Below, piece by piece: positions 2,649-36,515 of a stretch of 46,834 bases of DNA (within the stretch, counting starts at the first letter, position 1; the number at the start of each line of letters is the position of its first letter). The DNA comes from Ignavibacteriota bacterium (GTDB lineage Bacteria; Bacteroidota; Ignavibacteria; Tepidaquicellales; Tepidaquicellaceae): the NCBI GenBank assembly GCA_026390755.1, contig JAPLFI010000308.1, positions 1 to 46,834 of the forward strand. The letters are read 5' to 3'. The notes below the pieces were generated by a model that saw only the letters and a program-made list of their open reading frames with translations, did no database searches and was not told the origin of the DNA. The position numbers were made by a program, and so were the translations under genes.

Positions 2649-3434
2649 TTATTTTTTTAGATGATATTTATTAAATGCTTTCTCCGCGAGTTTTAAAACA
2701 CGGCGAACGCGTTCGGAATTAGTGACCTCAATATAATATTCACTTTTATTTTCCCCGCCGGACATTGAAATGCTGTTCCGTTTAAATTTCATAAGACTTT
2801 TAACGGAATCGCGAAGTGAAACGTGATATTCGCGGGCTCCTGTTCTTTTCACGAGTCGCTCTATATTTTTTTCATTTATTCCGGAACACGGCATTACCGA
2901 TATCTTATTGCCGGCATACTGAATTAGTTCGGAAATTAATTTTTCGCCCTGAACCGCCTTCTCTTTCTGTCCTGAAGTCAGCACCCGCGAGCATCCTATT
3001 GATATAACATCATCAAGCGCTTTAAAAGGGTCGCGCGACATATCGAATGCTCTGTGAAAAGTAACCTTCATAGGATATGCGAGGCGGACGAGTAATTCAG
3101 TCCTTTTAACATCAACACTGCCGTCGGAGTTTAGAATACCGGTTACGATACCGTCAGCTCCTGCCGATTTACATAACTCGACATTGTATTTCATTATACA
3201 ATACTCCGTATCGTCATACAGAAAGTCACCGCCGCGCGGTCTTATGATAACATATAAATCCGCTGACATTTTTCTTCTTGCGGCAATGATGGCACCGTGG
3301 GAAGGAGTAATTCCGCCTTCGGTTATGTTATCGCAGAGTTCGATTCTGCGCGCTCCTCCCTTTTCAGCGGACACGGCTGAATTAACCGAATTTGCGCAAA
3401 CCTCTATGTTGACAATAAAAGTATCGGGAACCAT
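2649..3434 (-). CDS. cutC: CutC family protein
   Basis: 261 residues, a usual length for CutC. Diagnostic stretches are VNIEVCANSVNSAVSAEKGG, RIELCDNITEGGITPS, IRPRGGDFLYDD, GADGIVTGILNSDGSVD, VTFHRAFDMSRDP and RVLTSGQ, in the order of the CutC TIM-barrel. There is no signal peptide, so it is cytoplasmic. The family was named for copper homeostasis in E. coli, but its biochemical role remains uncertain, so the symbol marks family rather than a proven function. It is the first gene of a two-gene minus-strand unit with the PNGase F-like gene 3 bp downstream. That partner gives no obvious copper connection. Confidence 0.9.
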   Translation of the reverse strand: MVPDTFIVNIEVCANSVNSAVSAEKGGARRIELCDNITEGGITPSHGAIIAARRKMSADLYVIIRPRGGDFLYDDTEYCIMKYNVELCKSAGADGIVTGILNSDGSVDVKRTELLVRLAYPMKVTFHRAFDMSRDPFKALDDVISIGCSRVLTSGQKEKAVQGEKLISELIQYAGNKISVMPCSGINEKNIERLVKRTGAREYHVSLRDSVKSLMKFKRNSISMSGGENKSEYYIEVTNSERVRRVLKLAEKAFNKYHLKK

Positions 3435-3569
3435 AATATATGTTTTATAAAATCAAAATATGAAAGCAATACGGGAAATTCAATTTAATAGCAGGCACCA
3501 TTATTTTTTATTTTTGTGTTATAATCTAAAATATTATTGTGTAAATTGAGTGATACAAACAATAATACG

Positions 3570-36205: not shown

Positions 36206-36240
36206 TGTCTCAAAATGAGAAAATTTGTCTCAAAATGAGA
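36206..36240. promoter_or_regulatory. Two tandem activator-like sites upstream of sigma-54 promoter
   Basis: The 15-mer TGTCTCAAAATGAGA occurs at 36206-36220 and again at 36226-36240, exactly 20 bp apart. Each has an inverted core CTCA-AAA-TGAG. They lie 50-85 bp upstream of the -24 element, where enhancer-binding proteins for sigma-54 commonly bind. The cognate activator is not in the window. Confidence 0.65.
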
Positions 36241-36289
36241 AAATATTTAGAGATACATTTCTAATAGAGGCTATAAATGAACTTTATAT

Positions 36290-36307
36290 TTGGCACGGAA
36301 ATTGCAT
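36290..36307 (+). promoter_or_regulatory. Sigma-54 (RpoN) -24/-12 promoter
   Basis: TTGGCACGGAAATTGCAT contains TGGCACG at -24 and TTGCA at -12 with exact RpoN spacing (consensus TGGCACG-N4-TTGCW). It points toward the metallophosphoesterase gene. The predicted start near 36318 gives a leader of about 200 nt. Confidence 0.78.
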
Positions 36308-36515
36308 GAATAAGTTAAAATTATGATTAAAATATATCAGAATAAATTTTCAGTCCTATAAACGAGTTATCCATCATAATAAAAAGATAAGACTGAAAAT
36401 ATGTCTGACCACTTAAAGTAATAATTATAATATTAAAAAATGGAATCCAGAAACCATTTCAAAAACGGGGCGAATCCGAAAAGCCTTATGAGTAGGAAAT
36501 AAATGAAAGATTAAA

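Follow-up and report, generated by a model that had tools for sequence, protein, structure and literature searches.

A predicted sigma-54 regulon with paired TCTCA-N3-TGAGA sites, its probable activator and a DUF805 RNA at a phosphoesterase lipoprotein gene of an uncultured Ignavibacteria bacterium

How is the gene for a secreted metallophosphoesterase controlled in an uncultured member of the Ignavibacteria? The gene lies in the window, the whole analysed stretch of 46,834 nucleotides, which is contig C354 of a genome (G000) of 3.9 Mb in 628 contigs, 98.85% complete. A preliminary description proposed that it is driven by an RpoN promoter with two tandem activator sites (UAS) on one face of the helix. 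The features of the locus are collected in Table 1.

Table 1. Predicted features upstream of and including the phosphoesterase gene (window positions)
Feature	Position	Strand	Remarks
UAS1, distal predicted activator site	36206..36220	+	palindrome core 36208-36220, TCTCAAAATGAGA
UAS2, proximal predicted activator site	36226..36240	+	core 36228-36240; -24 element 63 bp downstream
Spacer with weakly conserved element	36258..36290	+	regulon consensus approximately TTTCAGCC-AAAATCG-ACTTTTTATT
Sigma-54 promoter TGGCACG-GAAA-TTGC (-24/-12)	36291..36305	+	orthologous sites in G018, G019, G021
Leader hairpin	36347..36399 (approx.)	+	arms TTTTCAGTC/GACTGAAAA
DUF805 cis-regulatory RNA, Rfam RF03081	36435..36502	+	84 bits, E 1.9e-16
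CC/GG pairing	36476-36477 with 36495-36496		alignment columns 48-49 with 67-68; GAGUAGG box adjoins start codon
Metallophosphoesterase lipoprotein, 440 aa	36516..37838	+	lipobox Cys23; PF00149 E 3.8e-11

The promoter elements are as described. The sequence TGGCACGGAAATTGC matches the RpoN consensus exactly and is the window's only match with fewer than two mismatches. The GG of the -24 element, the GC of the -12 element and the TGGCAC-N5-TTGC spacing are all exact, and the orthologous sites align. Of random 125-bp windows, only 0.8% contain a -24/-12 site with one mismatch or none. Transcription is predicted to start near position 36317. The 15-mer TGTCTCAAAATGAGA is present in two exact copies with a spacing of 20 bp, and their positions, 50-85 bp upstream of the promoter, had been given correctly. 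The early reading would have fallen with the absence of rpoN from the genome; a profile search revealed a single copy (PF04552, E 1.1e-52).

The gene behind this promoter encodes a lipoprotein with intact phosphoesterase motifs (SDMH, GDLID, GNHD and GHTH), and DxH, GD, GNHD and GHxH are invariant in an alignment of 8 homologs; no solved structure was similar to it by sequence. Among the 44 genomes of the order the family is found in G000 (three genes), G018 (two), G019 (one) and G021 (two), with one weak match in G037 besides these four carriers. Both the UAS and the -24/-12 elements are kept before all phosphoesterase genes save those standing second in a tandem pair, where neither a UAS nor a sigma-54 site was found. 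UAS1 is kept across the 6 aligned phosphoesterase promoters, being degenerate in G019 and having one mismatch in G021. Between paralogs, the UAS and spacer are 97-98% identical, as compared to 71-73% for the coding sequences. These data support the proposed sigma-54 control of the secreted metallophosphoesterase.

The genome-wide search for the 15-mer together with RpoN sites, suggested in the preliminary description, yields both a regulon and a candidate bEBP. The pattern TCTCANNNTGAGA has 27 copies in the 3.9 Mb genome vs. none for a reversed-pattern control. All 24 of the copies with A or T in the centre fall within 13 sigma-54 promoters, 11 of which carry exact pairs (19-20 bp apart) and two a single exact copy. 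The remaining 3, whose centres contain G or C, stand alone and without a sigma-54 promoter. The pair pattern itself occurs 11 times in the genome and not once in the control. Exact pairs are present in 5 of the order's 44 genomes, all in genera that hold the candidate activator, and are absent from the genomes of the family that lack its ortholog and from the order's other family.

The placement of the pairs is regular as well. In a set of 45 promoters from G000 and its relatives, a few relatives being represented twice, the distances from the proximal UAS to the -24 element cluster at 63-66, 73-75, 85 and 94-96 bp, as predicted by helix phasing, with a few at 109 and 119-121 bp; the best period is about 11 bp (R 0.81). 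In the relatives' promoters with imperfect -24/-12 elements or a distance of 109-121 bp, the site that was scored is perhaps not the one in use. The 19-20 bp pair spacing and the phased distances support the early claim of tandem sites on one helix face, and they match what two activator dimers bound to that face would need. At the orthologous T9SS genes L154 (G018:C57) and L162 (G021:C264), the UAS pairs and the scored sigma-54 site are separated by 119-139 bp; either the true sigma-54 site lies elsewhere or the spacing is unusual. Elsewhere in G000, an exact sigma-54 site follows another bEBP gene (L075/L036, G000:C257 near 13119) with the half-palindrome TGTCTGAAATGAGA upstream; this is possibly a second, related regulon.

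The stretch between the UAS and the -24 element was examined in 34 non-redundant regulon promoters. It contains a weakly conserved element with 13.2 bits of information over 40 columns vs. 3.9 +/- 0.3 in shuffles, and its leave-one-out score is higher in the regulon than at other sigma-54 sites (Mann-Whitney p 5e-4). The element could be a site for a bending protein or an extra contact.

Which protein would recognize the palindromes? Phyletic co-occurrence was tried and set aside as uninformative, since most core bEBPs are common to the same genomes; adjacency singled one out instead. A bEBP encoded on contig C345 consists of a receiver, a sigma-54 AAA+ domain (PF00158, E 1.1e-68) and a Fis-type HTH, the receiver and HTH having been assigned by reading the sequence. 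Its nearest named relatives come from metagenome-assembled genomes of uncultured Ignavibacteriae/Ignavibacteria and Bacteroidota. The gene is preceded by one for a receiver-HisKA-HATPase kinase and followed directly by a regulon promoter. Among 55 bEBPs in six genomes, a palindrome lies within 700 bp of all six C345-type orthologs and of none of the 49 others. In G018 the bEBP is 441 bp away from an exact palindrome, and in G036 no scored sigma-54 match was found at the palindrome beside the bEBP.

The arrangement extends across the family. An ortholog of the C345 bEBP is present in 11 of 29 family genomes, the 11 belonging to 4 genera, and all 11 have a site just downstream of the gene: TCTCA-N3-TGAGA in nine and TTTCA-N3-TGAGA in two, the downstream site of the latter, one-mismatch genomes having drifted to TTTCATTTTGAGA. 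In most of the 11 genomes the palindrome is followed, at 61-63 or 93-96 bp, by a sigma-54-like site and then by a receiver gene. The conserved cassette comprises the kinase, the bEBP, the promoter, the receiver, a TPR protein and a secreted protein that, by reading of the sequence, resembles M64 peptidases. The loci L170-L173 derive from genomes already represented as G020, G017, G021 and (apparently) G018; they did not count as independent cases. The HTH helix SKATxYRKI is kept in the orthologs wherever the C-terminus was read. The sigma-54 contact loop reads GAFTDA or GSFTDA in 6/6 C345-type orthologs compared, not GAFTGA; GAFTDA is among the activator variants of D. vulgaris and is expected to keep activation (PMC4641369). 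Based on the conserved adjacency and the conservation of the HTH, the C345 NtrC-type response regulator, with the receiver-kinase encoded upstream, is very probably the activator of the regulon, another bEBP of the same specificity being still conceivable in that role.

The predicted regulon is about a dozen genes, mostly for surface or secreted proteins. In G000 the targets include 3 phosphoesterase lipoproteins, a DUF4402 secreted protein, a carotenoid-synthesis-like membrane protein, a receiver, 4 intact proteins with T9SS tails (two with BNR repeats, one LamG and one endonuclease I) and a split Omp28/T9SS gene; the relatives' targets show the same bias. The split gene (L069, G000:C446) is Omp28-like and broken by frameshifts, which makes it either a pseudogene or an assembly error. 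T9SS proteins account for about 5 of 11 targets vs. at most roughly 9% of genes, the gene number being assumed to be about 3,400. The enrichment is only moderate because T9SS tails are common in G000 (150 scored of 312 candidates). The coding sequence of such sorting tails (WDGTRFASG) can itself contain TGGCACGCGGTTTGC, as in L007, L008, L011 and L018 (position 1500), and this gives rise to spurious sigma-54 promoter calls where a genome is rich in T9SS genes. Stand-alone CheY-like receivers stand behind a regulon promoter at L066:4018-4404, L172:2230-2622 and 3136-3498, L170, L201 and L153, mostly beside the bEBP gene and, in G021, as two in tandem. They likely serve as feedback.

At the phosphoesterase genes the leader adds another element. 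It contains a match to the DUF805 RNA that exceeds the gathering threshold of 51.1 bits. This RNA is located upstream of 8/8 phosphoesterase genes and before no other regulon gene among those tested; across the phylum, 69 of 396 sampled genomes contain it. The open-access literature search returned no paper on it and no account of what the family does. Its hairpin shows compensatory changes, with the pair of columns 6 and 25 being GC in 20 and AU in 14 of 37 sequences. Further, the loop CC pairs with the GG of GAGUAGG, with a compensatory CU/AG change in four sequences, which suggests a pseudoknot that could control translation. An alternative pseudoknot, CGG/CCG, was rejected, being paired in 90.9% of cases vs. 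95.9% for CC/GG. The preliminary description had instead seen a hairpin and a 20-codon frame here. The hairpin does fold in the window copy, but its arms are kept in neither paralogs nor orthologs, and it was dropped as a conserved element; the fold of the whole leader has z = -2.1. The frame (36440-36502) proved to be the body of RF03081. Read as a conserved uORF it fails, as indels break it in both G021 copies; the length of the phylum-wide homologs, 64-71 nt, and the covariation of the hairpin pairs also speak against a uORF.

In general, what can be read directly from the DNA comprises the sites, their phasing, the regulon, the conserved cassette, the conservation of the promoter and the RNA. 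We consider it highly probable that a two-component sigma-54 regulon under the C345 kinase and NtrC-type activator, together with the DUF805 RNA layer, explains the region. The soluble receiver-histidine-kinase would phosphorylate the adjacent NtrC-family response regulator, dimers of which would bind the two TCTCA-N3-TGAGA palindromes, spaced by two turns of the helix. The bound bEBP would then assemble an active ATPase and remodel the RpoN-RNA polymerase held at TGGCAC-N5-TTGC, with transcription beginning at the predicted start. The output of the regulon thus activated would be mostly proteins that are secreted, T9SS-sorted or lipid-anchored, in the present case the calcineurin-like phosphoesterase lipoprotein. 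The stand-alone receiver encoded beside the activator, itself regulon-driven, probably feeds back on the phosphate flow. A second layer, specific to the phosphoesterase, would follow in the transcript: the DUF805 RNA stops a few nucleotides short of the start codon and probably modulates translation.

It may be asked whether the promoter is real while the palindromes are bound by some other regulator, either a bEBP or a repressor, with the C345 gene adjoining them by way of a target operon next door. The genome does encode about ten full-length bEBPs, and co-occurrence picks out none of the largely shared core set. This account is nevertheless unlikely: none of the 49 other bEBPs compared has a nearby palindrome, the adjacency to the C345-type gene is retained by 11 genomes, which span 4 genera and include the two with the drifted site, and the two-turn pairing with a fixed phase to the -24 element fits an enhancer-bound activator. 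Similarly improbable is control of the phosphoesterase mainly at the post-transcriptional level, the DUF805 RNA being decisive and the sigma-54 promoter minor or additional. In its favour, the RNA ranks with the best-conserved upstream blocks (84-96% vs. 67-73% for the coding sequence) and is retained before the second tandem genes, which have neither UAS nor sigma-54 site. Against it stand the near-identity of the UAS and spacer between paralogs and a promoter in 4/4 gene-carrying genomes, and the transcriptional and RNA layers are mutually compatible. As to palindromes that are repeats or unrelated sites beside a fortuitous -24/-12 match, the consensus does arise elsewhere by chance, and some exact matches lie in T9SS-tail coding sequence; the regulon-wide association, the phasing and the conservation across genera leave this reading a negligible probability.

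The proposed two-component system is of a known kind, while the regulon and the assignment of its activator appear new. With NtrC/AtoC-type regulons it shares RpoN, a -24/-12 promoter, palindromic UAS pairs in helical phase, a response-regulator bEBP with an adjacent histidine kinase and a target operon beside the bEBP gene. It differs in its kinase, which has a receiver at the N-terminus and lacks an evident membrane sensor, in the GAFTDA loop and in a regulon of T9SS and lipoprotein genes. The open-access literature search returned no sigma-54 UAS with the sequence TCTCA-N3-TGAGA. In the sigma-54 regulons of D. vulgaris (PMC4641369), bEBPs were likewise assigned to operons via conserved adjacency and motif, and the GAFTDA variant occurs; the phylum, motifs and targets are different. 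The view of sigma-54 as the controller of the bacterial exterior (PMC3162934) is matched by the mostly extracytoplasmic targets, including lipoproteins, to which T9SS cargo is added here as a further class; a text search of that paper for Bacteroidetes, Chlorobi and Ignavibacter returned nothing. The leader RNA resembles other members of RF03081 in its score and its position just before the start codon and differs in preceding metallophosphoesterase lipoproteins behind a sigma-54 promoter.

In other Bacteroidota, T9SS cargo is served by PorXY-SigP. Tentatively, we may have before us an undescribed sigma-54 surface and secretome regulon of the Ignavibacteria with a receiver-kinase and GAFTDA activator, autoregulated receivers, a PorXY-SigP-like role for the T9SS, a DUF805-gated phosphoesterase and a spacer that acts as the site of a bending protein or co-regulator; as a whole, this is less likely than not.

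For an uncultured lineage, the results delineate a regulon with a cis-site that can be named, an activator and a kinase that are probable, and a coherent surface and secreted output. They support the concept of a bacterial exterior governed by sigma-54 and extend it to T9SS cargo, and at the phosphoesterase locus the coupling of a sigma-54 promoter to a structured RNA can be put to the test.
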